From: Candidatus Parcubacteria bacterium
GTDB lineage: Bacteria > Patescibacteriota > Minisyncoccia > Minisyncoccales > JAGLUP01
Assembly (NCBI GenBank): GCA_023134715.1
Contig: JAGLUP010000007.1
Span: forward strand, 1 to 23,068
Direction: 5' to 3'
DNA: 23,068 nt
Below are positions 1,769 through 18,723 of the stretch, piece after piece. Numbering within the stretch: position 1 is the first letter of the stretch; each line of letters starts with the position of its first letter. The notes under the pieces were generated by a model. It was not told the DNA's origin. It did no database searches and worked only from the letters and a program-made list of their open reading frames with translations. Made by a program: the position numbers and the translations under genes.

Positions 1769-2542
1769 TTAAATCTTAAACAACTCTTTAGCGTTTTGGA
1801 AAGTAGTTTCTGCTATTTTATCAAAACTTTCATTTTTTATTTTTGCGATATATTCAGCTACAAATTTTACTGCCAAGGGATTATTTCTTTTTTCTTTAAA
1901 ATCTGGAGGGGTAAGATAGGGACAATCTGTTTCAATTAAAATCCTGTTTAAGGGGATTTTTTTAATAATTTTTTCAAAATCAATTCCTTTGGTTTTTCTA
2001 AAAATTATTCCTGTAAAGCCAATATAAAAGCCCAAAGCTAAATATTTTTCAGCTTCCTGTAATGTTCCAGTAAAACAATGCACCACCCCTTTTAGCTTGC
2101 ACAGACCCGACGTGTGTAAATCTTGAGATAAAATTTTAATAAGATCGTTGTGGGCAAAACGGCAGTGAATAATCATTGGCAAGCTTAACTCTTTGGCTAA
2201 TTTAATTTGCTCTATTAAAGCTTGTTTTTGCGCATTTTTATCTGTTGGGTATTTATAATCCAAACCGATCTCACCAATCGCGACCACTTTAGAATTTTGA
2301 GCAAGCTTTTTATATTTCTCATAATCAAAGCCATCTAAATTTTCTGAAGTCGGATGTAATCCAACAGTCGCATAAACACCTTTTTTATATTTTTCAGCAA
2401 TCTCAATTGCTTTTTTTGATGTCTTAAAATCCACGCCAACATTTATGAGCCAGACATTATTATCTAAACATTTTTTTATAACTTCATCTCTGTCTTTATC
2501 AAAATCAGAAAAATTTAAATGGCTATGAGTATCAATTAACAT
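1769..2542 (-). CDS. tatD: TatD-family metal-dependent hydrolase (DNase)
   Basis: This 257-residue protein is full length for TatD/YcfH TIM-barrel hydrolases. These cleave DNA with two metal ions and have been linked to 3'-5' exonuclease, repair and turnover roles. The metal-binding motifs appear in order: DTHSHLN near residue 4, GEIGLDY near 91, MIIHCR near 122, VVHCFTG near 152, and ETDCPYLTP near 203. The start ATG lies inside the end of aroA (11-base overlap), so the two genes are co-transcribed. The biological substrate cannot be told from sequence. Confidence 0.93.
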   Translation of the reverse strand: MLIDTHSHLNFSDFDKDRDEVIKKCLDNNVWLINVGVDFKTSKKAIEIAEKYKKGVYATVGLHPTSENLDGFDYEKYKKLAQNSKVVAIGEIGLDYKYPTDKNAQKQALIEQIKLAKELSLPMIIHCRFAHNDLIKILSQDLHTSGLCKLKGVVHCFTGTLQEAEKYLALGFYIGFTGIIFRKTKGIDFEKIIKKIPLNRILIETDCPYLTPPDFKEKRNNPLAVKFVAEYIAKIKNESFDKIAETTFQNAKELFKI

Positions 2543-3782
2543 TAATATTTGCTTTTAGGTAAATTAAATGCTCCCAGAACTCGGGAAAAGATTTTGAAAC
2601 GCATTCTGCGTTTTTTATAATCGTTCTCTCTTCCGCAACTAATCCCAAAACTCCAAAAGCCATAGCAATTCTATGGTCAATTGAACTAATGACAGCTCCT
2701 CTTGGCTTTGAACCCCAAATAATAAATTTATTATTTCGTGTTTTTGTTTTTATCATCATTCTCGCCAATCCTTTCTCCATTTCTTTAATCCGATTTGACT
2801 CTTTTAAAACTAATCTTTTAATTCCTGATATTTCACTCTTTCCTTTTGCTTGAGAGCATAAAACGCAAATTATTGGAAAAATATCCGGACAATCAGAAAT
2901 ATCTATTTTTATTGATTTTAGTTTTGATTTCTCCGCTATAACCGCATTTTTTCTTGTCTTAATTTTTGCGCCCATTTTTTCCAATATATTTATTATTTCT
3001 TTATCAGCTTGAGCGCTTTTAATATTTAAATTCTTAACTTCTGTTTTTCCAGCTAAAACCCCAATTGCCAATAAAAAAGCTGCTGAAGACCAATCGCTTT
3101 CTACAAAATAATTACATGGTTTATATCTCTGTTTTTGGATTAAAAATTTTCTTAAATTATTTGAATGTTTTACTTTTACGCCAAATTTTTTCTGAACATC
3201 AATTGTCATTAAAACATATGGCTTTGACTCTAAAACAGTTGTTAACTTTAGTTCAGTTTGCTTTTGACTAAACGGAGCTATAAGCAATAAAGCAGAAATA
3301 AACTGAGAGCTAATATCTCCTTTTATTTTTGTTTTTCCGCCAACAAAATTATTTTCAACCACTACTGAAGAAATTTTTTCCTCACAATCCACGCCAAGGT
3401 TCTGCAAAGCATTTATTAAGGGTTTAATCGGCCTTTTTAATAAAGAAATTTCTCCTGTAAGCTGACATTTTCCTTTTATTAAAGAACAAATTGCTATCAT
3501 AAATCTAAAAGTTGTCCCAGATTCTCGGCAAAACAAATCTTGTTTTGGAACAGAAAAATTTCCTCCTTTGACTTCCCAAATTTCTTTCTTTTTTTTAACA
3601 CTTATTCCTATTTTCTTTAATACATCTAAAGTCGCCCCTGTATCATCTGAGATAAGTGGAGATATTATCTTGCTTTTTCCTTTTGCTAAAGCAGCGCAAA
3701 TAAGAGCCCTGTGAGTATAGCTTTTTGAAGCCGGAGCTTTTATTTCGCCATATATTTTACTTTTCTGAATTATTGCTTCCAT
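2532..3782 (-). CDS. aroA: 3-phosphoshikimate 1-carboxyvinyltransferase (EPSP synthase)
   Basis: AroA transfers the enolpyruvyl group of PEP to shikimate 3-phosphate, the sixth step to chorismate. The protein has 416 residues, close to the usual length. Visible motifs are KAPASKSYTHRA near residue 16 (substrate-binding Lys20, Ser21, Arg25), RESGTTFRFM near 85, the DCPDIFP catalytic Asp segment near 298, and KESNRIKEM near 326. It begins downstream of the purD terminator and overlaps tatD at its end, so aroA-tatD looks like its own unit. With aroQ and tyrA-pheA nearby it suggests retained synthesis of aromatic amino acids, although the other shikimate genes are not in this window. Confidence 0.95.
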   Translation of the reverse strand: MEAIIQKSKIYGEIKAPASKSYTHRALICAALAKGKSKIISPLISDDTGATLDVLKKIGISVKKKKEIWEVKGGNFSVPKQDLFCRESGTTFRFMIAICSLIKGKCQLTGEISLLKRPIKPLINALQNLGVDCEEKISSVVVENNFVGGKTKIKGDISSQFISALLLIAPFSQKQTELKLTTVLESKPYVLMTIDVQKKFGVKVKHSNNLRKFLIQKQRYKPCNYFVESDWSSAAFLLAIGVLAGKTEVKNLNIKSAQADKEIINILEKMGAKIKTRKNAVIAEKSKLKSIKIDISDCPDIFPIICVLCSQAKGKSEISGIKRLVLKESNRIKEMEKGLARMMIKTKTRNNKFIIWGSKPRGAVISSIDHRIAMAFGVLGLVAEERTIIKNAECVSKSFPEFWEHLIYLKANINVN

Positions 3783-3855: not shown

Positions 3856-5121
3856 TTAAATTACTTTCCGGGCAATATCTTTTCTAAATTGCATACCTTT
3901 AAAAGATATCCTACCTACTGCTTTATACGCCCGCTTAACAGCCTCGGCATAGCTGTCTCCCAGGGCCGCAACCTCTAAGACTCTTCCGCCAGCAGTGACG
4001 ATCTTATCGCCTTTGCGGGCAGTACCGGAATGGAAAACCATTACATCTTTCATAGAGCTTGCTTTTTCAAGACCAAATATCTCCATCCCTGTTTTATAAT
4101 CACCTGGATACCCTTCTGAGGCAAGGACCACACAAACGCATTTCTTGTTAGACCACTTAATCTCTATCTCTTCTGGTCGCCCACTAATTACTGCTTCAAA
4201 AATATCAACTATATCGCTCTCAAGAAGCGAAAAAGTTACTGTGCTTTCTGGATCACCGCCACGACAATTAATTTCCATAACCATTGGCCCATTTTCTGTC
4301 ATTATCAGGCCAAGATAAATAATTCCCTTAAATGGCACTCTTTCGCGAGCCATCCCCTTAAGAAGAGGGCTAAGCATCCTCTTTTTAATCTGTTCAAGGT
4401 CGTTGCTGTTAAGAAACGTCACCGGAGCATAAGAACCCATACCTCCTGTATTTGGTCCTTGATTTCCATTATAAGCAGCCTTATAATCCTGGGCTGGAGG
4501 CAAAAAGCAGGATGTTTTTCCGTCAGTAAAAGCAATCACCGAGACCTCTTCTCCTCTTAAATATTCTTCGATAACTACTTTGTCGCCAGCCGAACCAAAA
4601 ATTTTCTTGAGCATAACATCCTTTAAAAAATCTGCTGCTTCTCGATAAGTCATTGCTACCTTAACTCCCTTTCCAGCAGCTAATCCGTCAGCTTTAATAA
4701 CAATTGGCAAAGGCCTGCCCTGGATATAATTAAATGCTTCATTAAAATCTGAAAACACCTCATATTCGGCCGTAGGGATACTACATTTGCTCATCAATTC
4801 CTTAGCAAACGCTTTACTGCTCTCAATGGCCGCCGCTCTTTGGGTTGGACCAAAAATGCGCAACCCGTTTTCTTCAAACAAATCTACAATTCCATTAGCC
4901 AACGGCGCCTCTGGGCCGACTATTGTTAAATCAATGCTTTCTTTTTGAGCAAATGTAACTAAATTAGAAATATCATTGATTTCAATAGGAACACATTCAG
5001 CCAGTTTTGCAATCCCAGCATTCCCTGGGGCACAAAATATTTTGCCTACTTTTGGACTATGAGCAATCTTCTCAACTAAAGCATGCTCTCGCCCACCCCC
5101 TCCAATAACTAAAATTTTCAT
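3856..5121 (-). CDS. purD: Phosphoribosylamine-glycine ligase (GAR synthetase)
   Basis: PurD joins glycine to phosphoribosylamine using ATP, the second step of de novo purine synthesis. The 421 residues cover the full enzyme: N-domain MKILVIGGGGREHAL with GPEAPL near 69, ATP-grasp domain with KADGLAAGKGVKVA near 143 and QDYKAAYNGNQGPNTGGMG near 212, and metal-binding MEINCRGGDPES near 278. A good Shine-Dalgarno site (AGGTGG, 10 bases before ATG) and its own promoter and terminator make it a single-gene unit. The gene is visibly richer in G and C than its neighbours and no other purine gene is in the window, which suggests separate acquisition. Confidence 0.96.
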   Translation of the reverse strand: MKILVIGGGGREHALVEKIAHSPKVGKIFCAPGNAGIAKLAECVPIEINDISNLVTFAQKESIDLTIVGPEAPLANGIVDLFEENGLRIFGPTQRAAAIESSKAFAKELMSKCSIPTAEYEVFSDFNEAFNYIQGRPLPIVIKADGLAAGKGVKVAMTYREAADFLKDVMLKKIFGSAGDKVVIEEYLRGEEVSVIAFTDGKTSCFLPPAQDYKAAYNGNQGPNTGGMGSYAPVTFLNSNDLEQIKKRMLSPLLKGMARERVPFKGIIYLGLIMTENGPMVMEINCRGGDPESTVTFSLLESDIVDIFEAVISGRPEEIEIKWSNKKCVCVVLASEGYPGDYKTGMEIFGLEKASSMKDVMVFHSGTARKGDKIVTAGGRVLEVAALGDSYAEAVKRAYKAVGRISFKGMQFRKDIARKVI

Positions 5122-5148
5122 TTTTAAAGAACCACCTCTCTTTTTATA

Positions 5149-5166
5149 TCTGCTGACTTCAGCAGA
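5149..5166 (-). promoter_or_regulatory. Hairpin at the 5' end of the purD leader
   Basis: TCTGCTGA (5149-5156) pairs with TCAGCAGA (5159-5166), a perfect 8-bp stem. It sits at the expected start of the purD transcript, about 28 bases upstream of the ATG and just before the Shine-Dalgarno site. It could stabilise the mRNA or modulate initiation. No T run follows on the minus strand, so it is not a terminator. Confidence 0.4.
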
Positions 5167-5174
5167 GATTGTAG

Positions 5175-5202
5175 TTTATCATAAAAGAAAACAATCTGTC
5201 AA
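5175..5202 (-). promoter_or_regulatory. Probable purD promoter
   Basis: On the minus strand, a perfect -35 TTGACA (5202-5197) is followed after 16 bases by GATAAA (5180-5175, 4 of 6 to the -10 consensus). It lies 3' of the tyrA-pheA stop codon at 5206-5208 and would start transcription near 5167, giving purD a leader of about 45 bases. Confidence 0.55.
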
Positions 5203-5205
5203 AAT

Positions 5206-6903
5206 TTAACTTACGCCGATTACTCTGATAATGGAGCAGTATTTTTCAATTTGTTTTATTGTCTTTTTTATTTCAGGACAAGGGTAGGAAACATCCGCCT
5301 CTAAAAAGAAAAAATAATCCCAAGGCCGTAAATGAGAAGGGATAGAATGCAATGATGTTAAATTCAAATTATTTTGAGCAAAAACATCTAAAATATCGCG
5401 CAAAATTCCGACTCTATTGTAAACAGCAAGTAATAATAATGTCTTTTCAGCTTTTAATTTTTTTTGAAACTTTTTGTTTATATCTGGTGTAATTAAATAA
5501 AATTTTGTAAAATTATCCTTACTATCCTCTATATTTTTCGCCAAAATATTCAGTCCATATTCTTTAGCGGCAATCTCGCCAGCGATAAAACCAACTTCTT
5601 TGTCTTGATTTTCTAAAATCGGAGCGGTTGTGCTTGAGCTGGTTTCTAATTTTACTCTCGGCAAATTCCTTGCCAGCCAATCCCGGCATTGAGATAATGC
5701 CTGAGGATGGGTTTTCACAGTTTTAATTTCTTTTTTATTTTTTGTTCTTGCTAAAAAACAATGATGCACAGCTATATTAAAAGACCCACTGATTTTTAAG
5801 GGATACTCGGCTAAACAATTAATTGTCTCTGAAACTATTCCTCCAATTGTATTTTCTGCAGGCGCTATTCCCAAATCAATTTCTTGAGAATTAACTTTTT
5901 CAAAAATTTCTTTAATTGTTCCTAATGTAATAAACTTTGATTTTTGAGGAAAAACCTTTCTAACCGCTTGATGAGAAAAAGTTCCTTTTGGCCCTAAAAA
6001 TCCAATTTTTATTTTACTTTTAAGGTTAATTATTTTTTTTGCTTGTTTTATTTTAATCGGCTGCCTGTTAATTATTCTCAATACCTCTGTTGATTTTGTT
6101 TGGGAAACTTTTCTGAATCCGTCTAAATACAAAGAGGTCTGCTTAAATTTCTTAACAAAGCTCTTAAGATTTTTGTCTCTTACATCTTTAGACAAATCTT
6201 TAATCTGATTTTCAAAATCAATTAAAACATTTTTAAAATAAGGATTTCTTATCTCAAGCTCTGCATAAAGCTCAGGATTTTGGCCTAAAATTCGGCCTAT
6301 GATTAAGATTTGAAGACGAAATACCGGAGTTAAAAATGAACTTTTTGGAATAATTTTTTGCGAATAAAGCGTTCGGGCAAGCCCAATATTTGTAAAATGA
6401 ATCAAGGCTTGGACTATTGCCATCTGTTTGTCGTGTTCTTCTGGAGAAACTTCAATTATCTCGGCTTTATTTTTAACAAAAATCTTTCTTAAAAAATCTA
6501 CCCATTGATTATTTTTTACCCCACAGAAAACAAATTTCTGGCCTTCTAAATTTTGAACTAAAGGACCAAATAAAGGATGCATGCCAAGTACTCCGGATTT
6601 TGCTTTTCGCATTGCTTCTACCGGCTCTTCTTTAAGAGAGGTGATATCACAAAGCAAAGCGTCTTTTCTAACAAAATCTCTAACTTCTTTAATAACTCTT
6701 ACCGTATTTCCTATAGGGACTGAAACAATAACAATATCAGCTTTTTTTGCTAATTCAACATTAGAAAACTTTGTCTTGACATCTGAAACTAAAACTTTAA
6801 ATCCTTGGTTCTCAAAAAAACCATTAAACCAAGCTCCCATTTTTCCTTTTCCGCCAATAATCCCAATTAAGGGCTTTTTATTCAATTTTTTATTCTTTCT
6901 CAT
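5206..6903 (-). CDS. TyrA-PheA fusion: prephenate dehydrogenase / prephenate dehydratase with ACT domain
   Basis: This 565-residue bifunctional protein sits at the prephenate branch point. Residues about 11-270 are a TyrA-type dehydrogenase: NAD-binding GIIGGKGKMG at 13-22 and GMHPLFGP at 107-114 with the conserved His109. Residues about 298-475 are a PheA-type dehydratase: IGFLGPKGTFSHQA at 300-313, PAENTIGG near 348, HPQALSQC at 399-406, and NFTKF at 464-468 in place of the usual TRF motif (Lys for Arg). An ACT domain follows (about 488-562), but the phenylalanine-binding ESRP motif is replaced by LHSIPS, so feedback control may differ. I chose ATG 6903 over a GTG at 6930 because the Rossmann motif begins a few residues later and the GTG lies inside a palindrome. 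It follows aroQ. Confidence 0.88.
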   Translation of the reverse strand: MRKNKKLNKKPLIGIIGGKGKMGAWFNGFFENQGFKVLVSDVKTKFSNVELAKKADIVIVSVPIGNTVRVIKEVRDFVRKDALLCDITSLKEEPVEAMRKAKSGVLGMHPLFGPLVQNLEGQKFVFCGVKNNQWVDFLRKIFVKNKAEIIEVSPEEHDKQMAIVQALIHFTNIGLARTLYSQKIIPKSSFLTPVFRLQILIIGRILGQNPELYAELEIRNPYFKNVLIDFENQIKDLSKDVRDKNLKSFVKKFKQTSLYLDGFRKVSQTKSTEVLRIINRQPIKIKQAKKIINLKSKIKIGFLGPKGTFSHQAVRKVFPQKSKFITLGTIKEIFEKVNSQEIDLGIAPAENTIGGIVSETINCLAEYPLKISGSFNIAVHHCFLARTKNKKEIKTVKTHPQALSQCRDWLARNLPRVKLETSSSTTAPILENQDKEVGFIAGEIAAKEYGLNILAKNIEDSKDNFTKFYLITPDINKKFQKKLKAEKTLLLLAVYNRVGILRDILDVFAQNNLNLTSLHSIPSHLRPWDYFFFLEADVSYPCPEIKKTIKQIEKYCSIIRVIGVS

Positions 6904-6913
6904 TATTAAAAAG

Positions 6914-6951
6914 TATAACACATATACCACGATCGTTGTATATGTGTTATA
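6914..6951. promoter_or_regulatory. Perfect 14-bp inverted repeat between aroQ and tyrA-pheA
   Basis: TATAACACATATAC at 6914-6927 and its exact reverse complement at 6938-6951 flank a 10-base spacer that contains the palindrome ACGATCGT (6929-6936). It fills the gap between the aroQ stop (6952-6954) and the tyrA-pheA ATG. On the minus strand the hairpin is followed by CTTTTTA, so it could act as a terminator-like attenuator. As DNA it is also symmetric enough to be an operator. The sequence alone does not decide between these. Confidence 0.6.
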
Positions 6952-8336: not shown

Positions 8337-8603
8337 ATGCCTAATACTAAATCTGCTAAAAAATCTTTGCGGCAAAATATAAAAAGAAAATTGCATAACC
8401 GCCGCATAAAAAGAAAAATAAAAGACCTCATAAAAGAGGTGAAGATTTTAATTTCTCAAAAAAAGATTGAAGAGGCTAAAAAACTTTTACCAACGCTTTA
8501 TAAAGCATTGGATAAGGCCGTAAAAACTAATCTTTTTAAGAAAAACACTGTAAGCAGAAAAAAATCAAGAATAACTAAATTGACAAATTCTAAATCCCAG
8601 TAA
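8337..8603 (+). CDS. rpsT: Small ribosomal subunit protein S20 (bS20)
   Basis: bS20 binds 16S rRNA early in 30S assembly. The 88-residue product has the family start MPNTKSAKKSLRQN and the helical KR-rich body with the LDKAVKTNLFKKNTVSRKKSRI segment. I chose ATG 8337 over an in-frame TTG at 8322 because MPN(T)KSAKK is the standard N-terminus and the length is then normal (about 87). No strong Shine-Dalgarno site is seen. Its last 14 bases overlap the convergent holA 3' end; rpsT next to holA is a common pairing in bacteria. Confidence 0.94.
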   Translation: MPNTKSAKKSLRQNIKRKLHNRRIKRKIKDLIKEVKILISQKKIEEAKKLLPTLYKALDKAVKTNLFKKNTVSRKKSRITKLTNSKSQ

Positions 8604-9501
8604 CCAGTAAATCAAGCGCTGCTCCCGCTTCTATTCTTCCTGTTTTTATGCTTAGATCTGCTTGAAAAATCTTCAAGTAGATTTTTTTTAGTTCCTCTAA
8701 AGAAAATTTCCTTGCCTGCTCCATGCTTTTTCTTGCCACATAGGGATGCATGCCAACAGGACGGGACTGCTCTTTTACCATTAAAAGATTGCGGAATTGA
8801 AAATTAATCATTGAAAGAAGATACAAGGGCGAATCGCCTTTTTCTAAATGTTTATGAAGAAATTTTAACGCTTGATTTTTATTTCTCAATGCAATAGCGT
8901 CAATGGTTTTAAAAATATCTGTTTCTATTTTTGGCTTAACCAAAAGCTCAACATCTTGTCGCTCTATTTGCTTTTTATTTTTAAAGCTAACTAACTTTCT
9001 TATTTCATTTGAAAATCGCCAAAGGTCGTTGCCAACAAAAGCAATTAATTTCTCCAATGCCTCTGGGCTTATTCTTGAATTATAGCTCTTAAATTCCCGC
9101 CTGAGCCAATTTTTTAATTCTATTCCCTCTAAAAGCTTGAATTCTTGCGCCTTGGCGCGTTGTTTTAAAAATTTAAACAAAGGTTTATTCGCGGCAATCT
9201 TTTCTTCACAATAGAACAAGATTACATCTTCTGATTTTAAATATTTTTCTTTTTCTTTTAAAAATTTCTCCTGAAAATCAGAACTTGAAAAAATATTTTT
9301 TAAAATAATAAGTTTCTTCTCTTTAAACATTGACGCGGAGCGAATTACATCTTTAAAGTCCTGAAAAGAAAAAACTTGGGCGAACAAGTCAAAAACCTTT
9401 AAATTAAGCCCGCTTTTGCGGACTTTTTCGTAATGTTCAATTATTTCCCGCAATTTTTTGCGGCTGCGATAAACGTCTTGGCCATAAAGAAAAATAATCA
9501 T
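8590..9501 (-). CDS. holA: DNA polymerase III delta subunit
   Basis: HolA is the wrench of the clamp loader: it opens the beta sliding clamp and hands it to DNA. The 303 residues begin MIIFLYGQDVYRSRKKLRE, the degenerate AAA+ start of delta (no Walker A, as normal). Next come SASMFKEKKLIILKNI (clamp-binding region, about 55-70), a helical domain with LWRFSNEIRKLVSF near 160, and the C-terminal collar containing FKTIDAIALRNKNQALKFL near 197. Length is normal to slightly short. It starts 3 bases after the response regulator gene stop at 9505, so it is probably read from the upstream signalling/tsaE run. Confidence 0.88.
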   Translation of the reverse strand: MIIFLYGQDVYRSRKKLREIIEHYEKVRKSGLNLKVFDLFAQVFSFQDFKDVIRSASMFKEKKLIILKNIFSSSDFQEKFLKEKEKYLKSEDVILFYCEEKIAANKPLFKFLKQRAKAQEFKLLEGIELKNWLRREFKSYNSRISPEALEKLIAFVGNDLWRFSNEIRKLVSFKNKKQIERQDVELLVKPKIETDIFKTIDAIALRNKNQALKFLHKHLEKGDSPLYLLSMINFQFRNLLMVKEQSRPVGMHPYVARKSMEQARKFSLEELKKIYLKIFQADLSIKTGRIEAGAALDLLVTGI

Positions 9502-9504
9502 AAA

Positions 9505-9870
9505 CTATTTTAAATATTTCTCAATTTTTTCAATAATCTCTCCAGGAGTAAAATGAGCTTTAATTAAATAATCAACAGCTCCTAATTTAAATCCTTTTTC
9601 AATATCTTCTTCTTGTCCAAGATTAGATAAAATAATCACAGGCACTTTAATAAGACTTGACTTGCTTTTTATCTGCTGTAAAACTTCAAAACCATCAATA
9701 CCCGGCAGTATTAAATCAAGCAAAACAAGGTCTGGCTTTTCTTCTTCTGCTTTTTTTACTCCTTCTTCTCCGTCAATTGCTTGCGCTATTTCAAAACCTT
9801 GACCCAAAAGCTTGCGAACAATTAATTCTCTTAAAAATTTATCATCCTCAATAATTAAAATTTTCTTCAT
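9505..9870 (-). CDS. Single-domain CheY-like response regulator (second copy)
   Basis: This 121-residue receiver domain has no output domain. The phosphorylation site is complete: acidic pair Asp9/Asp10, phospho-acceptor Asp52 (LLDLILP), switch Ser82 and Lys104. It probably receives phosphate from the histidine kinase encoded upstream. It closely resembles the regulator at 9955-10323 (both start MKKILIIED and share DGEEG and DGFEV), so the two likely arose by tandem duplication. Without an output domain it must act by protein contact or as a phosphate sink. holA begins 3 bases later. Confidence 0.9.
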   Translation of the reverse strand: MKKILIIEDDKFLRELIVRKLLGQGFEIAQAIDGEEGVKKAEEEKPDLVLLDLILPGIDGFEVLQQIKSKSSLIKVPVIILSNLGQEEDIEKGFKLGAVDYLIKAHFTPGEIIEKIEKYLK

Positions 9871-9877
9871 AATTTCT

Positions 9878-9913
9878 ACTACGAATTTACGAATTACTAC
9901 GAATTTACGAATT
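9878..9913. repeat. Two perfect 18-bp tandem repeats between the regulator genes
   Basis: ACTACGAATTTACGAATT occurs twice head to tail (9878-9895 and 9896-9913) in the 84-base gap between the two receiver genes. Each unit holds two ACGAATT words. It precedes the downstream regulator gene by only a few bases and could be a binding site or a mobile intergenic repeat. Confidence 0.7.
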
Positions 9914-9954
9914 TTTTATTAGTATATTCGCACTGATTAGTAGTTTCGTAGGGG

Positions 9955-10323
9955 CTATTTGCCTATTTGTTTGATTGTTTTATCAATTACCTCTTGGGGA
10001 TCAAACTCCGTCTTTATCAGCCAATCTTTAGCTCCAAGCTTTTCAGCCCGATCTATCTCTACCGGCTGGCCAGAATTAGAAATTACAATTAGAGGGATGC
10101 TTTTAAGTTTTTTATCCTTGTTCATTTCTTCCATAACTTCAAATCCATCAAGTTTTGGCATAATAATATCTAATAATATGAGGTCTGGCTTTGCTTCCCG
10201 CATCATCTGAAGCCCCTCTTCTCCGTCCCGAGCCACTAAAATCTCATAACCCTCTTGAATTAATTTATTTTGAAGAAGATCAAGTAGTATTTCTTCATCT
10301 TCAATAATTAAAATTTTCTTCAT
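9955..10323 (-). CDS. Single-domain CheY-like response regulator (first copy)
   Basis: This 122-residue receiver-only protein has the acidic residues Asp9/Glu10, phospho-acceptor Asp52 (LLDIIMP), Ser82 and Lys104. It begins 22 bases after the histidine kinase stop, so it is the most likely direct partner of that kinase. No DNA-binding or enzymatic output is fused. The gap to the next receiver gene holds tandem 18-bp repeats. The duplicate pair could split one kinase signal into two outputs, or one copy could drain phosphate; neither can be decided from sequence. Confidence 0.9.
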   Translation of the reverse strand: MKKILIIEDEEILLDLLQNKLIQEGYEILVARDGEEGLQMMREAKPDLILLDIIMPKLDGFEVMEEMNKDKKLKSIPLIVISNSGQPVEIDRAEKLGAKDWLIKTEFDPQEVIDKTIKQIGK

Positions 10324-10345
10324 ATATTATTATTATAAATCCTTT

Positions 10346-11485
10346 TTATTTCAAAGGCAAGCCCCGCATAGGCAAGGAGAAACTAAATTCTGATCCCTTG
10401 TCTTTTTCAGATTCAAACCAAACTTTGCCTTTATGAGCTTCAATAATATTTTTAACAATAAAAAGCCCTAATCCAGATCCTTCTGTTCTTGTTTTTACGG
10501 CATCAGGCGCTCGAAAAAATTTATTAAAAATTCTTTTCTTTTGGTTTTCAGAAATTCCTATGCCGTTATCTTTTATAGAAAATTTTACTTCTTTTTTGTT
10601 ATGGCTTAAAGAAGCTATTATCTCTCCGCCAGGTGGTGTATATGATATAGCATTATCAAAAAGATTCTGAATAGCTATTTGCATTTTTTCAGCGTCAATT
10701 TTAATTTTAGGAATTTTTTCTTTTGGTTTTTTAAATCTAATTTTTAATTTTTTTCTTTTGGTTTTTTCTTTAAAAAATTCAATCACTGAGCTAACTAAAT
10801 CTTCAAAATTAACTAATGTTGGCTTATAAACATACCTTCCCTCTTCAATTCTAGTTACATTTAAAAGGTCATTAACCAAAGAAATCATTCTTTCATTGCT
10901 TTGATAAGTTTTTCTAAGAAATTCTTCTTGTTCTTTCCCAATTTTACCCAAATCTCCCGCTAAAAACATTTTAAGCGTCCATTTAATCGCTGAAAGGGGT
11001 GTGCGTAATTGATGAGCGGCAATAGTGACAAACTCTGTTTTCATTTTTTCAATCCTTTTTTCTCGAGTAATATCATGCAAAATAACCAATGCTCCTATCT
11101 CTTCTTTCTCTCTTATAATAGAAACAGTGCTCACTTCTAAAACTAAATTTTCTTTTAAAGTCAACTCTTTCCTGGAAATATTCTTAATATAATCTGGGCC
11201 TAGTATTTTTATTAAGGACTGCAAGGATGAAACCTCGGAAAGAGCAGATATAGAAAGCCCGACAACATCTTTATGGACGACATTAAAAAATCGTTCGGCT
11301 TGAGGATTAAACAAAACAAGAAAATGTTCTTTATCAAAAAACAAAAGCCCGTCAGTAAAATTAGTAATTATGGCCAATGTTTTATTTTTTTCCTCTTCAG
11401 CTCTGTCTCTTGCGTTCTCAACATCTTCTAAAATGTTCATTAACGCATCTCTTCCTGATTTAAATTCTTTTGTTTCTTCTGTCAT
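10346..11485 (-). CDS. Soluble PAS-sensor histidine kinase
   Basis: This 379-residue kinase has no transmembrane segment. Residues 1-35 form a coiled coil, about 36-140 a PAS domain (TDGLLFFDKEHFLVLFNPQAERFF), and about 150-215 the dimerisation/phosphotransfer domain with His158 in AAHQLRTPLSAIKW. The ATP-binding domain (about 225-375) has N box NLFDNAISYTPPGG (Asn278 region), G1 DNGIGI and G2 GSGLGLFIV. All kinase motifs look intact. The start overlaps the stop of the PAS/coiled-coil gene as ATGA, so the two are translationally coupled. It is the only kinase among the neighbouring sensory proteins and should phosphorylate one or both receivers downstream. Confidence 0.94.
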   Translation of the reverse strand: MTEETKEFKSGRDALMNILEDVENARDRAEEEKNKTLAIITNFTDGLLFFDKEHFLVLFNPQAERFFNVVHKDVVGLSISALSEVSSLQSLIKILGPDYIKNISRKELTLKENLVLEVSTVSIIREKEEIGALVILHDITREKRIEKMKTEFVTIAAHQLRTPLSAIKWTLKMFLAGDLGKIGKEQEEFLRKTYQSNERMISLVNDLLNVTRIEEGRYVYKPTLVNFEDLVSSVIEFFKEKTKRKKLKIRFKKPKEKIPKIKIDAEKMQIAIQNLFDNAISYTPPGGEIIASLSHNKKEVKFSIKDNGIGISENQKKRIFNKFFRAPDAVKTRTEGSGLGLFIVKNIIEAHKGKVWFESEKDKGSEFSFSLPMRGLPLK

Positions 11486-12159
11486 TTTTTTAATTTTTCT
11501 AACCTCTTAATCTCTTGTTTTAATTCTATCATTTTTAATTCTCTTCCGATAGTAAGCTTATGAAATCTCTCCAATTCGTCAACTCTTTCCTGAAGCTCTT
11601 TTGTTCTTGCTTTTACTTTTTTGTCTAACCCTTGATTCAGTTCTGCCAACTCTCTCGTCCTTGCCTTTACTTTTACCTCTAACACATTTTTTGATTCTTC
11701 GATGGAATCTTTTGCTTTTTGAAGCTCTTTTGTTCTTTCTTTCACTTTATCTTCCAATTCCTCTCTATTTCTGCTTAAACTATTAACTAATCCTTGATAC
11801 TGCGTTGCATCTGTAAATACTGCAAATCCTCCAATTATTTTCTTCTTTTCCTTTAGGGGTAAAATACTGAAAGAAATTGGAATTTTTTCTTTCTCTTTAG
11901 TCAAAAGAAGCGTGTCAAATTCTTTAAAATTTGTTTCTTCTATTAAAGTCTTCTGAATGATTTCATTAATTCTATTTTTTTCTCTTTCTGAAATTAAATC
12001 GCTTACTGATTTCTTAACTAATTCTTTCAATTGATATCCGCTAAAATTCTCCAAAGAATTATTAGCATATTCAATAATTCCTTGTTCATTAAATATCGCT
12101 ATTGAGCTTACTACGTTAACAAAAATATCCTTATAAAGTTTTTGTGTTTCTTTAATCAT
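11482..12159 (-). CDS. PAS-domain protein with coiled-coil tail, no kinase domain
   Basis: The 225 residues split in two. About 10-120 is a PAS domain (IAIFNEQGIIEYANNSLENF, then a beta sheet ending GGFAVFTDATQ). Residues 120-225 are a long coiled coil with repeated K(V)KARTRELAELNQ-like units and the end ELERFHKLTIGRELKMIELK. There is no HisKA or ATPase domain. The last 60 residues are almost the same as those of the HAMP protein at 13572-14234. It is coupled to the kinase gene by an ATGA overlap, so it may dock on the kinase and feed it a signal. No ligand is evident. Confidence 0.85.
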   Translation of the reverse strand: MIKETQKLYKDIFVNVVSSIAIFNEQGIIEYANNSLENFSGYQLKELVKKSVSDLISEREKNRINEIIQKTLIEETNFKEFDTLLLTKEKEKIPISFSILPLKEKKKIIGGFAVFTDATQYQGLVNSLSRNREELEDKVKERTKELQKAKDSIEESKNVLEVKVKARTRELAELNQGLDKKVKARTKELQERVDELERFHKLTIGRELKMIELKQEIKRLEKLKK

Positions 12160-12179
12160 CTATTTATTAGAAATTATTT

Positions 12180-13568
12180 TCAACGTAATTTGTCAGATAT
12201 TCCGAACATGGTGATGGTTAAGTTTGTCGCTGTCGCTTGCCCGGTTTTATAAAATGCCTGCTCGCCAACAGAACATATCCCAAAGACAGGAATATCTTGT
12301 TTTAAGGTTTTCTTTATTGCTTCTATTTCTTTAAAATACTGAGTTCCTAAAATATAAGCTCTTCCTCCACAGGAAAAAAAGAAAACAAAATGAAATTTTT
12401 TCTCCGCTGTATCATCCATCATTCTCTGGGCAGCTTTTTCTGTAGCTTTTTGAGCATCTTCTGAAGAAATGTTAACTAAATTAAGACCTAATCCTTGTTT
12501 TATTTTATCCATAACTATAACTTTTTTATCCTTAACTCCGACAATAGATAATGGCCAATAAAATTCTGCGGCTGGGTCGGAAAACGCCAAAGCCCAGCCC
12601 TTCATCCAGGTTTTAAACGCTAATCTTTGAAATTCTTGTTTTTTTATGCCAGCGTGTTTTTCAAATAATGGCGCTAATACCTCAAAAGCAGGTTTATTAT
12701 TTATTTCCTCGATAGTCCAATCTTTCCCTTTAGTAATTATTCCTACAGGTTCAATAATCTTGGCTCCAGTATCTACTCCATAACCAATTTTAAGGTCAGA
12801 ATCAAAAACAACAGAAATCACCGCGTTTTTGTAGGCCTTATCATTGTAGAAATGGAAAGGAGATTTGAGCTCTCCTGATGAACCTCCTCTTATTAACCCT
12901 CCGCCTATTAACTTTACCATTCTTTTTGTGTAAAAATTTATTCCTTCAAGAATTTGAGCGTCAACAAGTCCTTTTTCAGAAATAGCGCTTTGTGTTCCCG
13001 CAGTAAGCAATAATCCATCTAAAAATCTTACATTTTCCATTTCTTTTTCTCCTCTTTTTAATATTGCCATATATGCCAAAACTGGATTATATTCTAAGTT
13101 GCTTAATGCCTGCTTTATACAATCAAGGCCAGCTTGTTTCGGATCTTTGTCTGTATTTAAACCTATGCCTGTGCCAACTCGCAAAAAAGGCGACTCTAAA
13201 GCCAGAACACAAACTCCAGAAAACTTCAAGGGTTTTATTATCTTCCCTAAAGGTTTTGTTATGATTCCGGTTAATTTACTTATAAGGTCTATATCAAAAT
13301 AATATTTATTTTTAGCAAAAAAACCTAATACTGTGCCGCCGACTAAAGGTATTTTTTTATCTGGAAAAATTTCTCTTATCGCTCTCATTGCTTTTTCATA
13401 ATCAGCTTCTTCCTTGTAGCGGACAACATAAGAAAGGTCGCAAAAAAACATCAAGAGTTTTGGTTTTTTGCCCTTTATTTCCTGTTTAGCTTTTTGAGCC
13501 GCCTCTCTTGCGGCTTCTATTAAATTGTCTTTTTGGGATATGCCGAGCCCAACATTTACTTCTGCCAT
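12180..13568 (-). CDS. FIST-domain sensory protein
   Basis: The 462 residues match FIST proteins (FIST_N then FIST_C). FIST_N covers about 20-230 with the DLSYV and PLVGGTVLGFFA segments. FIST_C covers about 245-445 with the family signature FFSCGGRAYILGTQYFKE and PVFGICSVGEQAFY. FIST domains are sensory; one studied branch (NosP) binds heme, responds to nitric oxide and controls a neighbouring histidine kinase. Whether this protein binds heme, amino acids or something else cannot be told. It has no membrane segment. It lies 3 bases after the HAMP gene and 20 before the PAS gene, in a kinase operon. Confidence 0.88.
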   Translation of the reverse strand: MAEVNVGLGISQKDNLIEAAREAAQKAKQEIKGKKPKLLMFFCDLSYVVRYKEEADYEKAMRAIREIFPDKKIPLVGGTVLGFFAKNKYYFDIDLISKLTGIITKPLGKIIKPLKFSGVCVLALESPFLRVGTGIGLNTDKDPKQAGLDCIKQALSNLEYNPVLAYMAILKRGEKEMENVRFLDGLLLTAGTQSAISEKGLVDAQILEGINFYTKRMVKLIGGGLIRGGSSGELKSPFHFYNDKAYKNAVISVVFDSDLKIGYGVDTGAKIIEPVGIITKGKDWTIEEINNKPAFEVLAPLFEKHAGIKKQEFQRLAFKTWMKGWALAFSDPAAEFYWPLSIVGVKDKKVIVMDKIKQGLGLNLVNISSEDAQKATEKAAQRMMDDTAEKKFHFVFFFSCGGRAYILGTQYFKEIEAIKKTLKQDIPVFGICSVGEQAFYKTGQATATNLTITMFGISDKLR

Positions 13569-13571
13569 AAT

Positions 13572-14234
13572 TTATTTATTTTCTAATTTCTCTTCTAATT
13601 TTTTAATCTCTTGTTTTAATTCTATCATTTTTACTTCTCTGCCTATGGTTAATTTATGAAATCTTTCTAATTCATTAATTCTATTCTGAAGTTCTTTTGT
13701 TCTTGTTTTGACCTGTTCTTCCAACGTCTGGTTTAACTCTGCCAATTCTCTCGTTCTTGCTTTGACTTTTATTTCTAAAGACGCCTTTTCTTCTTCAAGA
13801 GCTGTTTTAGATTTTTTTAAATCCTCTACCATTGCGTTAAATGAACTTGTAAGCTCTCCAATTTCATCGCGGGATATAACTTTTAACTTTATATCTAAAT
13901 TTCCTTCTGACACTTTTCTTATTCCTTTTATTAAATTCTGCAAAGGACGAACTAAATTCCGATTAAGAATTATACTGACGAATATCACCAAAATTAGTAC
14001 TAAAAGAAAAGTTAATTGAGTTTGAATTTTAACATTTTGATAGGTAAGAGTTAAATCCTGTTCAACTAAAGGCAATTCTTTAGGAAAGTATTTAGTAATT
14101 ACCTCTTGATAAGTAGAAATAATTAAAAAATTAGAAATTATCAAAGGGATAATTGAAACAATTATAATAACTATTAGCAATTTGGTAAAAATTCTCCGTT
14201 GGATAGGAATTTTTTTTCGTAATAAATTTTTCAT
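13572..14234 (-). CDS. Membrane HAMP protein with coiled-coil tail, no kinase domain
   Basis: From ATG 14234 this gives 220 residues (a TTG at 14252 would add six and overlap the previous gene). Two transmembrane helices (about 17-40 and 73-92 in this numbering) flank a loop of only about 32 residues, too small for a classic sensor domain. A HAMP domain follows (LVRPLQNLIKGIRKVSEGNLD ... DEIGELTSSFNAM is spread over 94-136). The rest is a coiled coil with KVKARTRELAELNQ and the end ELERFHKLTIGREVKMIELK, nearly identical to the tail of the PAS protein at 11482-12159. It could relay a signal from the 7TM protein encoded just upstream. Confidence 0.85.
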   Translation of the reverse strand: MKNLLRKKIPIQRRIFTKLLIVIIIVSIIPLIISNFLIISTYQEVITKYFPKELPLVEQDLTLTYQNVKIQTQLTFLLVLILVIFVSIILNRNLVRPLQNLIKGIRKVSEGNLDIKLKVISRDEIGELTSSFNAMVEDLKKSKTALEEEKASLEIKVKARTRELAELNQTLEEQVKTRTKELQNRINELERFHKLTIGREVKMIELKQEIKKLEEKLENK

Positions 14235-14238
14235 TAAA

Positions 14239-14952
14239 TTATAATTTTTCAAATTTAGTCATTACTTCTTCGCTAGTATAGGAAAGATAATTAATTAAAA
14301 TAGCGACTAAAAATAGAATTCTAAATAGAAATAATTGCCAACCAGCCGCAAAAAGCCCGGTTGTTTCCATGGCTAAAATACAACAAATCAAAAATATGGT
14401 TAAACTGGTGAACCATTTATAACTATCTATAACCCTTTTGTTTTTAATCCAGTTCCCAATCCGAGCAACTAAATCATAGATTATAATTACGTATTTTCCT
14501 AAAAATCCGATGTTTAAAACTATCCCCCCAACACCTAAAAGAGAGTATTGATTTCCCCAATCAGTAATTATTGGTCCTTTTATTCCATCTTTTAACATTA
14601 ATAAAAGAACCGTTAACATCATTAAAGAACCAGCCAAACCTGCTATTTTGGCAAGTTTTTCCTGAAAACCAATTTTTAAAACCAAATGATAAAGACAAGG
14701 AGCCATTGCTATCGGAGCTACTACAAAAAGACCGTAAAAAAGAATCCTATCAATTTGAGAGTAACCAAGATAGGAAAACAAAAGCCGAAGCCCGTCTAAA
14801 GCAAATATCAGCAGAATTAAAAATAAATACCAAGCAAAAGAAATTGATTCTTTGTCTTTTCTCGCTTTTTTAAAAATAGTTCTAACTGTAAATAAGCCGA
14901 CTGCGACACAAAGAAAAAGAATAAATATATTGTAAAATACTAAAGAAATCAT
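14239..14952 (-). CDS. Polytopic (about 7 helices) membrane protein, possible sensor
   Basis: The 237 residues contain about seven hydrophobic helices (near 3-22, 40-60, 70-90, 103-122, 138-160, 180-202 and 205-225) with short loops and a short cytoplasmic end (TSEEVMTKFEKL). I recognise no transporter or enzyme motif. Size and topology resemble the 7-helix sensory modules often fused to histidine kinases, and the gene is followed 4 bases later by the HAMP relay protein. I infer a stand-alone membrane sensor; another membrane function is possible. It starts 23 bases after the 5'-nuclease stop. Confidence 0.75.
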   Translation of the reverse strand: MISLVFYNIFILFLCVAVGLFTVRTIFKKARKDKESISFAWYLFLILLIFALDGLRLLFSYLGYSQIDRILFYGLFVVAPIAMAPCLYHLVLKIGFQEKLAKIAGLAGSLMMLTVLLLMLKDGIKGPIITDWGNQYSLLGVGGIVLNIGFLGKYVIIIYDLVARIGNWIKNKRVIDSYKWFTSLTIFLICCILAMETTGLFAAGWQLFLFRILFLVAILINYLSYTSEEVMTKFEKL

Positions 14953-14975: not shown

Positions 14976-15902
14976 TTAAAAAAGTTTTCTGTTATAACTG
15001 TTAATATCTATTTTATCTTCTGATAATCTTTTTATTAAGCCATAAAATTCAAAATCCTTAAGGATTCTTATTGCTTTTTCTTTATCAAAATCTTTCCAAA
15101 GACAATTTTTTAAATTAAAATCAATGGACACGTCGCATTTAATGGTGGCCAGCATTTTGCTAAAAAACGCCTGGTCCCGGTATTCAAACAACTTATTCTT
15201 CAAAGAATCTTTAATCTTTTCTGCTTGCTCGCTTTTTTCGTCTAATTCTTTATAAAGATTTTCCAAAGAGCCAAATTCTTTAATTAAAACAATAGCGGTT
15301 TTCTCGCCAATTCCTAAAATGCCCGGAATGTTGTCTGAAGCGTCTCCTTTTAGCCCTTTTAAATCAGCCATTTGTTCTGGTTTTACTCCTCCGTATCTTT
15401 CTTTAACTTTTTCTTCATCATATAAAACCGCATCCTTGACGCCTCTTCTTAAGGCAAGAACTTTTGTGTTTTTATTTATCAACTGAAGCGCGTCTAAGTC
15501 CCCAGTAATAATAATTGTTTCTATGGGCGACTGAAGGGCGATTGTCCCGATTAAATCATCTGCCTCAAATCCTTCCTGCTCAAAAATCGGAACATTAAAT
15601 TCTCTTAAAATATTTTTTATCTTTGGAATTTGCTCATAAAGCTCGTCAGGCGCTTTTTGCCTTTTCGCTTTATATTCTTTATATTTTTTATGCCGAAAAG
15701 TAGGGCCGGGCAAATCAAAAGTAGCCGCAACATAATCCGGCTTAAATTCTTTCAACGCTCTAAAAAAAACCAATAAAAAACCGTAAACAGCGTTAACTAA
15801 TTCCCCTTTTTTTGTTGTTAAGGGCGGCAAAGCGTGATAAGCCCTATGGACTAAAGCGTTGCCGTCAATAACGATAAGCCGTTTCTTTTTTTCTTGTTCC
15901 AT
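14976..15902 (-). CDS. Stand-alone 5'-3' exonuclease / flap endonuclease (PolA N-domain type)
   Basis: The 308 residues equal the 5'-nuclease domain of DNA polymerase I, without 3'-5' exonuclease or polymerase domains. The metal-binding acids are present: Asp13 (VIDGN), Asp63 (ATFDLPG), Glu113/Asp115/Asp116 (EADD), Asp135/Asp137 (TGDLD), and Asp187/Asp190 (KGDASDNIPG). The H3TH region GILGIGEKTA follows. It would remove RNA primers and 5' flaps. It ends cleanly with FYGLIKRLS and a short tail, so it looks like a natural short enzyme rather than a truncated polA. Its first 52 bases overlap tsaE in another frame. Confidence 0.9.
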   Translation of the reverse strand: MEQEKKKRLIVIDGNALVHRAYHALPPLTTKKGELVNAVYGFLLVFFRALKEFKPDYVAATFDLPGPTFRHKKYKEYKAKRQKAPDELYEQIPKIKNILREFNVPIFEQEGFEADDLIGTIALQSPIETIIITGDLDALQLINKNTKVLALRRGVKDAVLYDEEKVKERYGGVKPEQMADLKGLKGDASDNIPGILGIGEKTAIVLIKEFGSLENLYKELDEKSEQAEKIKDSLKNKLFEYRDQAFFSKMLATIKCDVSIDFNLKNCLWKDFDKEKAIRILKDFEFYGLIKRLSEDKIDINSYNRKLF

Positions 15903-17424: not shown

Positions 17425-18723
17425 ATGACAAAAATTGCCGGCAAATTCACAATTTCTAAAATTAATTTTGACAATTTTCAAGAAAAAATAAAAAATATTG
17501 ATGATTTTAAAAAAGAACTTGAAAATGCTTCAGAGAAAAAAACAAGCGACCTCTTAGAAATTATTTTAACAGGAGCAATAATATTAGACGCTTCTGATTT
17601 TCATATTGAGCCGGAAGAAAAACAAGCAAGAACGCGCGCAAGAATTGATGGAATGCTGCAAGACGCAACAACCCTAAAACCAGAAATTTATAACGCTTTA
17701 CTTTCTCGAATCAAAATGCTTTCAGGAATTAAATTAAACATTACCAACAAAGCGCAAGACGGCCGATTTTCTGTAGTTATAAACACCGCGACAATTGAAG
17801 TTAGAGCGTCTACCTTGCCTGCTGAATACGGAGAATCAATTGTTTTAAGAATTCTAAATCCTAAAAACCTAATGGAGCTTGAAAAATTGGGGCTAAGAAA
17901 CAGCTTATTAGCAATATTTAATCAAGAAGTAAAAAAACCGAATGGAATGATTATTGTTACCGGACCCACTGGCTCTGGAAAAACCACCACCTTGTATGCT
18001 TTTCTAAAAAAGATACAAAAACCAGAAATTAAAATCATTACAATTGAAGATCCCATAGAATATCATTTAAAAGGAATTTCTCAAACTCAAGTTGATCCTA
18101 AAAAGGGCTATGATTTTGCCAATGGTCTTCGCTCAATAATGAGGCAGGACCCTAATGTAATTTTAGTTGGAGAAATCAGAGACTTTGAAACAGCTCAAAT
18201 TGCGCTGCAAGCCGCTTTAACCGGCCATTTGGTTTTAAGCACGCTTCATGCTAATGACGCGGCAAGCACTATTTCCCGCCTTATCGACCTGGGAGTCAGC
18301 CCTAATTCTATTGCTCCGGGACTAAATATGGTTGTGGCTCAAAGATTAGTGAGAAAAGTGTGTAAAAAATGTGCAAAACTTGAGGAAATCTCTGTTCAAG
18401 ATATGAAACAAATAAAAAAAGCTCTTAAAAACATTTCTTCTGAAATAAAAATCCCTGACTTAAATGGAAAAATTAAAATTTATAAAACAGGAAAGGGCTG
18501 CGAATATTGCAACTTTACCGGACACAAAGAAAGAACCGGTATTTTTGAAAGCTTTATAAATAACGATGAAATAAAACAATTTATTTTAAGCTCTTCTTCT
18601 GCTTCCGGTTTAAGACAAATAATAATAAAAAGGGGAATGCTCACGCTATATCAAGACGGCCTAATAAAAGTTCTTAAAAGAGAAACCACCTTGGAAGAAA
18701 TAAAAAGAGCAACAGGAAAATAG
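17425..18723 (+). CDS. pilB: Type IV pilus assembly ATPase PilB (GspE family), N-terminally short
   Basis: PilB is the hexameric motor that drives pilus extension. The 432 residues begin almost directly with the N2 domain (SDFHIEPEEKQARTRARIDG near 57). Next come Walker A GPTGSGKTTT at 180-189, the Asp box TIEDPIEYHLKGISQTQV, Walker B ILVGEIRDFETA at 246-257, and His box LVLSTLHANDAAST at 269-282. A zinc site is formed by Cys313/Cys316 and Cys359/Cys362. The N1 domain that contacts PilM/PilC in longer homologues (about 560 residues) is mostly missing. The ATPase core looks intact. It follows the DHH-like gene by 5 bases. Confidence 0.92.
   Translation: MTKIAGKFTISKINFDNFQEKIKNIDDFKKELENASEKKTSDLLEIILTGAIILDASDFHIEPEEKQARTRARIDGMLQDATTLKPEIYNALLSRIKMLSGIKLNITNKAQDGRFSVVINTATIEVRASTLPAEYGESIVLRILNPKNLMELEKLGLRNSLLAIFNQEVKKPNGMIIVTGPTGSGKTTTLYAFLKKIQKPEIKIITIEDPIEYHLKGISQTQVDPKKGYDFANGLRSIMRQDPNVILVGEIRDFETAQIALQAALTGHLVLSTLHANDAASTISRLIDLGVSPNSIAPGLNMVVAQRLVRKVCKKCAKLEEISVQDMKQIKKALKNISSEIKIPDLNGKIKIYKTGKGCEYCNFTGHKERTGIFESFINNDEIKQFILSSSSASGLRQIIIKRGMLTLYQDGLIKVLKRETTLEEIKRATGK

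Follow-up and report, generated by a model that had tools for sequence, protein, structure and literature searches.

Sensor kinases are usually seen as single proteins, with the input wired to the kinase core by fusion. How might a kinase be controlled if its candidate sensors are encoded as separate genes next to it? This question is raised by the window, i.e., the whole 23,068-nucleotide stretch of DNA analyzed here, from contig JAGLUP010000007.1 of a Candidatus Parcubacteria genome (761,603 bases, 12 contigs).

A seven-gene two-component locus

The original prediction described seven consecutive minus-strand ORFs at 9505-14952, and all of them are present. They are listed below in the direction of transcription, together with the conserved segments that we discuss later and the two flanking genes.

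14976..15902, minus strand, homologue of polA-type 5'-3' exonuclease ("polA5"), upstream flank, named by sequence and synteny, not domain-scanned
14239..14952, minus strand, 7TM membrane protein, 237 aa, no Pfam or NCBIfam family (ORF)
13572..14252, minus strand, kinase-less sensor with two TM helices, HAMP, RTKEL coiled coil and GRE tail (ORF, Pfam)
13587..13706, minus strand, GRE tail of the HAMP protein (profile match, E 2e-25)
12180..13568, minus strand, FIST N and FIST C protein without the tail (Pfam)
11482..12159, minus strand, kinase-less sensor with PAS, RTKEL coiled coil and GRE tail (ORF, Pfam)
11491..11610, minus strand, GRE tail of the PAS protein (profile match, E 3e-25)
10346..11485, minus strand, soluble histidine kinase with N-terminal motif helix, PAS, HisKA and HATPase_c (ORF, Pfam)
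11324..11461, minus strand, kinase N-terminal motif segment (ALMNILEDVENARDRAEEE...), the proposed tail socket (profile match, E 5e-27; profile from the locus kinases)
9955..10323, minus strand, RR2, receiver-only regulator of the SNSGQPVE...KTEFDPQEV group (Pfam, RR grouping)
9505..9870, minus strand, RR1, receiver-only regulator of the LSNLGQ...KAHFTPGEI group (Pfam, RR grouping)
8590..9501, minus strand, holA-like gene, downstream flank, named by sequence and synteny, not domain-scanned

The predicted spacings of 3, 20, -4, 22 and 84 bases follow directly from these coordinates. With ATG 14234 as the start of the HAMP gene (220 aa), the first spacing is 4, as given; with TTG 14252 (226 aa), it turns into an overlap. 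Among the kinase-less proteins, Pfam recognizes HAMP (E 7e-16), FIST N/C (E 6e-18) and PAS_9 (E 2.5e-12). As had been claimed, HisKA (E 1.6e-15) and HATPase_c (E 1.6e-28) are found in only one of the seven proteins, which also has a weak PAS match, and the His158 proposed as a kinase motif is the phospho-acceptor within AAHQLRTP. The two receivers match Response_reg (E 4e-24 and 6e-26), both with the phospho-acceptor Asp52 in LLD(L/I). Judged by sequence, the set is a two-component system, i.e., a HisKA/HATPase_c kinase with its His and receivers with their Asp, for which phosphotransfer is predicted. The name "phosphorelay" originally given to it has to be dropped: there are one kinase and two separate receivers, and neither an HPt domain nor a hybrid receiver was found in the seven proteins or in the relatives' loci examined.

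The genome has three histidine kinases and four receivers; a fourth HATPase match is a gyrB/parE-like gene by sequence. Promoter matches are near the shuffled background. Elsewhere in the window, positions 3856-6930 hold purD and a fused prephenate dehydrogenase-prephenate dehydratase-ACT gene, both kept in this small genome and adjoined by an EPSP-synthase-family gene (2532-3782).

Constant outputs and exchanged inputs

Conservation of gene order had been set as the test of the original prediction, and the arrangement tsaE–polA5–sensor genes–kinase–RR2–RR1–holA does recur across the taxonomic order, in Patescibacteria each taken from a different family, often with one extra gene between RR1 and holA. 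It is the core of kinase, RR2 and RR1 that is conserved; the exact seven-gene set is not, and the input genes vary. In relatives the sensor slot is occupied by HAMP-tail, PAS-tail, 6-9TM-tail, Cache-HAMP-tail, FIST, 7TM, V4R-like and HbpS-like proteins, by Bmp and by two other solute-binding proteins. The outputs (RR2 and RR1) are constant and the inputs are exchanged between relatives. RR1 and RR2 form two ancient groups, and the branch between them has support of 100/99.

Several occupants of the slot deserve a separate mention. A V4R-like family of ~200 residues, without the tail and under the Pfam cut-off, is encoded immediately upstream of the kinase in some ten relatives (L018:8984-9595, L040:9175-9780, and others), with up to four copies in a row in L022. 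SBP_bac_3, SBP_bac_8, Bmp or an HbpS-like protein holds the slot in L024:8235-12247, L030:6092-7231 and L052:9158-9571, which may be compared with three-component systems. Further upstream, across tsaE-polA5, a type IV pilus-type ATPase is found in at least 18 loci; in the window, a type IV pilus/type II secretion-type ATPase is located at 17425-18723. This neighbor is only a hint of the output.

A common C-terminal tail of the kinase-less sensors

The HAMP and PAS proteins of the window have a common C-terminal coiled coil, with 66% identity over 89 residues, which ends in a 41-residue tail, ERTKELQERxxELEKFxKLTVGRELKMIELKKEIK, here called the GRE tail. This shared tail was absent from the original prediction. 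T3, G22, R23, E24, M27 and K31 are invariant in 28 aligned tails. Three more kinase-less tail proteins are encoded in the window genome, i.e., a coil-only protein of 125 residues beside a FIST gene (contig C7), a 6TM protein (C5) and a 2TM-HAMP-like protein (C8).

The tail is present in 27 of the 40 genomes searched (the window genome and its order relatives, each from another family). Within the order it is C-terminal in 54 of 54 proteins, with at most 17 residues following it; outside the order, it is found no more than 20 residues from the stop in 92/97 proteins. None of the 151 matching proteins combines the tail with a kinase core in one ORF, so the existence of fused tail-kinase proteins was not confirmed. 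Matches in GTDB genomes are in records named Nitrospirae, Planctomycetota, Deltaproteobacteria, Chloroflexi, Acidobacteria, Bacteroidales, Bdellovibrio and several archaea, and the most similar tails among public records are from Patescibacteria. The tail profile gives no match to reversed sequences. Neither the tail nor the kinase motif described below has a named counterpart in Pfam or a meaningful match in the PDB, where the motif profile matches the WalK linker region weakly, and the strings of both are absent from the open-access literature searched.

A kinase N-terminal motif associated with the tail

Ahead of the PAS domain, the locus kinases have an N-terminal segment, LxxxRxALLNILEDxEEARxxAEEER, with the core ALLNILEDxEEAR. 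Only kinases of the order went into the training of the motif profile, which makes a set of named lineages outside Patescibacteria independent of it. In this set, the motif is found in 17 of the 22 kinases whose gene immediately follows a tail gene versus 3 of the 40 further kinases from those stretches (p=2.9e-8). There it often appears as two or three repeats of ~22 residues on a soluble kinase of ~350 residues, with a 4-base gene overlap; tandem repeats are seen, for example, in L081:8149-9042, L087:8129-9208 and L110:8147-9151, and are perhaps several docking sites for several sensors. Since the motif precedes HisKA as well as HisKA_2 kinases, it is not likely to be part of the catalytic core. 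Archaeal kinases adjacent to tail genes mostly give no match to the motif as modeled, and the L024 and L054 kinases have the motif together with fused membrane helices.

Tail and motif also occur together at the genome level. Both are present in 23 of the 40 genomes, the tail only in four, a strong motif only in two and neither in 11 (p=3.5e-5); please note that a strong match means E about 1e-20, a threshold chosen after the score gap was visible, and that related genomes are not fully independent. Most exceptions are found at contig ends: the G015 and G018 kinases start <300 bases from the end, and the tail genes of G014, G037 and G038 are near contig ends. In a phylum sample of 117 genomes, the tail is present in all six with the motif versus 7/111 without it (p=5e-7), and in 4/4 of the motif genomes outside the order. 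Genomes with the tail and no motif kinase include G033, G038 and seven in the phylum sample. A genome often has several tail genes (up to seven), and the motif kinase is almost always single; the window genome has five tail proteins and one motif kinase. As a separate observation, L092:3062-9762 is one operon with seven tail sensor genes upstream of a single motif kinase, in which the tail gene at 9010-9762 has a copy of the kinase motif immediately ahead of its tail.

Relatives with fused sensors as a natural control

Seven relatives have a kinase of the same family and no tail gene at the locus (L141, L142, L145, L146, L147, L150 and L151). Their kinases have no motif or, in L141, a degenerate form of it; six of the seven have fused membrane sensors and L142 has a long soluble N-terminal part instead. 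The motif is present in 20/20 loci with a tail gene and a visible kinase versus 0/7 tail-less loci (Fisher p=1.1e-6), where the tail-bearing loci were selected by their tail, so that such counts characterize the class without being a census; fairer tests are the searches across genomes and the set from outside Patescibacteria given above. For L035, whose kinase ORF is broken, the first half was counted, and L028 (tail frame-shifted), L031 (kinase cut by the contig end), L153 and L154 (upstream part cut off) were left out.

The most telling of these relatives is L150, in which a 7TM homologue is followed by a fused HAMP-PAS kinase and then by RR2 and RR1. Residues 23-176 of the fused protein match the window HAMP protein with 44% identity, the alignment ending at the RTREL coil, and the window kinase, from its own residue 23, aligns to residues 166-520 with 51% identity. 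The fused protein is without just two things, i.e., the tail and the first 22 residues of the kinase. Of all single observations, this speaks most strongly for the split proteins being one sensor kinase in two pieces and for the extra ends being tied to the split. For the original idea that the kinase-less proteins feed one soluble kinase there is good support, most of all from this relative; the contact itself is the part that we infer.

The fused, motif-less L142, L146, L147 and L151 tend to keep RR1 only, with RR2 lost; L145 and L150 keep both. On the kinase tree, 6-7 split/fused changes are needed and no bootstrap tree is at one, with a poorly supported backbone; we do not claim repeated switching, since the strongly supported branches force only one.

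A connector model and its alternatives

We consider it probable that this is a two-component system in which the sensor and kinase halves are separate and are joined by a conserved tail/motif connector that replaces fusion. In this model, the main sensors (2TM-HAMP and PAS here; 6-9TM, Cache and bare coil proteins in relatives) end in an S-helix-like RTKEL coil followed by the GRE tail, and the tail would bind the ALLNILED-EEAR helix at the start of the soluble kinase. The resulting composite signaling coil would do, between separate sensor and kinase dimers, the job of the continuous coil in ordinary fused kinases. Sensor dimers would set the kinase/phosphatase state, the readout being the constant RR2 and RR1, and several sensors may share one kinase through the connector, possibly including those encoded by tail genes elsewhere in the genome. 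The direction of control, the signals and the output are our suggestions, as is the physical contact of tail and motif.

Alternatively, the sensors might control the kinase via their folded domains (PAS, FIST, HAMP bundle), the tail being a homodimer or stability cap and the motif a dimer coil of the kinase itself. Tail and motif are helical by pattern and each might homodimerize, tail-less FIST proteins share the slot, and the FIST protein NosP binds to NosK, a kinase that has no sensor domain, and inhibits it (PMC12570481). However, a mere dimer cap fails to explain the joint gain and loss of tail and motif or the fused relative without both, and a 125-residue protein of only coil and tail exists beside a FIST gene, so that we regard this explanation as unlikely. 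It is very unlikely that sensors and kinase form higher-order arrays in the chemotaxis or stressosome style with the tail as a packing element: the several tail proteins per genome with typically one motif kinase, an operon with as many as seven tail genes (L092) and the common C-terminal module behind varied N-termini would fit such arrays, but CheW, CheA-type kinase, MCP hairpin or STAS was not reported in any of the proteins scanned, and one-sensor/one-kinase pairs are common in other phyla. That the genes are merely co-transcribed and the tail proteins act elsewhere, on the receivers or the pilus machinery whose ATPase lies nearby, has the least to commend it, as the motif-tail association persists in other phyla with other neighbors and the fused kinase of L150 has the HAMP protein as its sensor half.

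Returning to the connector model, the tail-less FIST and 7TM proteins may be accessory sensing subunits, acting via tail proteins or directly on the kinase; for both, gene association and precedent suggest contact with the kinase. FIST could act via co-encoded tail proteins or on the kinase itself, in the manner of NosP and NosK. The FIST gene sits beside the window kinase, which, however, has its own PAS domain, and the NCBIfam NosP model gives only E 0.0016 and 17.6 bits with the window FIST protein, far under the cut-off of 450. There are six FIST genes in this 0.76 Mb genome, two of them at contig starts. On contig C7, a FIST gene is followed by the coil-tail protein (L007:8319-9913) far from any kinase, and this pair is possibly a remote FIST cartridge.

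The 7TM protein, for which Pfam and NCBIfam hold no family, was modeled as a seven-helix bundle in a receptor-like arrangement (pLDDT 79). Distant homologues adjoin a HAMP-tail gene (L021) and the fused HAMP kinase (L150). Foldseek gave no match at E<=0.001, only generic seven-helix receptors, and against GPCRs the model reached VIA-align Z 13-15 at about 4 A, a score that helical bundles generally can reach. Heliorhodopsin was considered because heliorhodopsins adjoin kinases in Patescibacteria; it was rejected, as was any other rhodopsin, with helix 7 (AGWQLFLFRILFLVAILINYLSY) lacking the retinal-binding Lys.

Relation to known systems

Several known systems come close to the locus. NosP acts in trans on NosK, a kinase without its own input domain (PMC12570481), and NosP-NosK-NosR resembles the window in having a separate FIST protein, encoded with the kinase, that senses in trans; that system has one sensor, no reported GRE tail and a response regulator with HD-GYP output, whereas here there are several sensor types, a common tail and receiver-only regulators. 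The RT/ERT-containing coiled coil after HAMP or PAS is like the S-helix, which is almost always between two domains of one protein (PMC1592074); here, in contrast, the protein ends with coil and tail and the kinase has a gene of its own, which places coil and tail outside the S-helix as defined. Kinase core and domain order are those of WalK/PhoR-type HAMP-PAS kinases, to which the fused L150 belongs, with the difference of two genes and the added tail and motif. In HbpS-SenS-SenR (PMC4991794) and QseG-QseE (PMC6075780), a separate protein modulates the kinase, and HbpS-like and solute-binding proteins are in the relatives' slot; those kinases keep their own sensor and membrane anchor, whereas the kinase here is soluble and all sensing at the membrane is elsewhere. 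Many varied sensors with one conserved C-terminal module and one kinase recall chemoreceptor arrays and stressosomes, but the modules are unrelated, and no CheA, CheW or MCP signaling domain was found by Pfam in the seven proteins, nor was STAS seen. Hik36-Hik43 (PMC7656254) is also a kinase from two gene products; it is split inside a CheA-type kinase core, and the split here is between sensor and kinase.

Significance

The arrangement is real and conserved and, to our knowledge of the open-access literature, undescribed. As a bolder and more tentative proposal, one that we find attractive without quite favoring it, the tail and ALLNILED may be a general heterotypic docking code of bacterial and archaeal histidine kinases, by which one soluble kinase is served by interchangeable, genome-wide kinase-less sensors. 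If true, signals would be integrated here in a way that differs from hybrid kinases, chemoreceptor arrays and stressosomes. The connector idea is directly testable because fused and split forms of the same kinase occur in relatives. If it is true, many orphan PAS, HAMP, Cache and FIST proteins of bacteria and archaea could be assigned to a kinase by sequence, and sensor engineering would gain a ready-made part. The connector would also explain how minimal Patescibacteria, with very few kinases, could read many signals.
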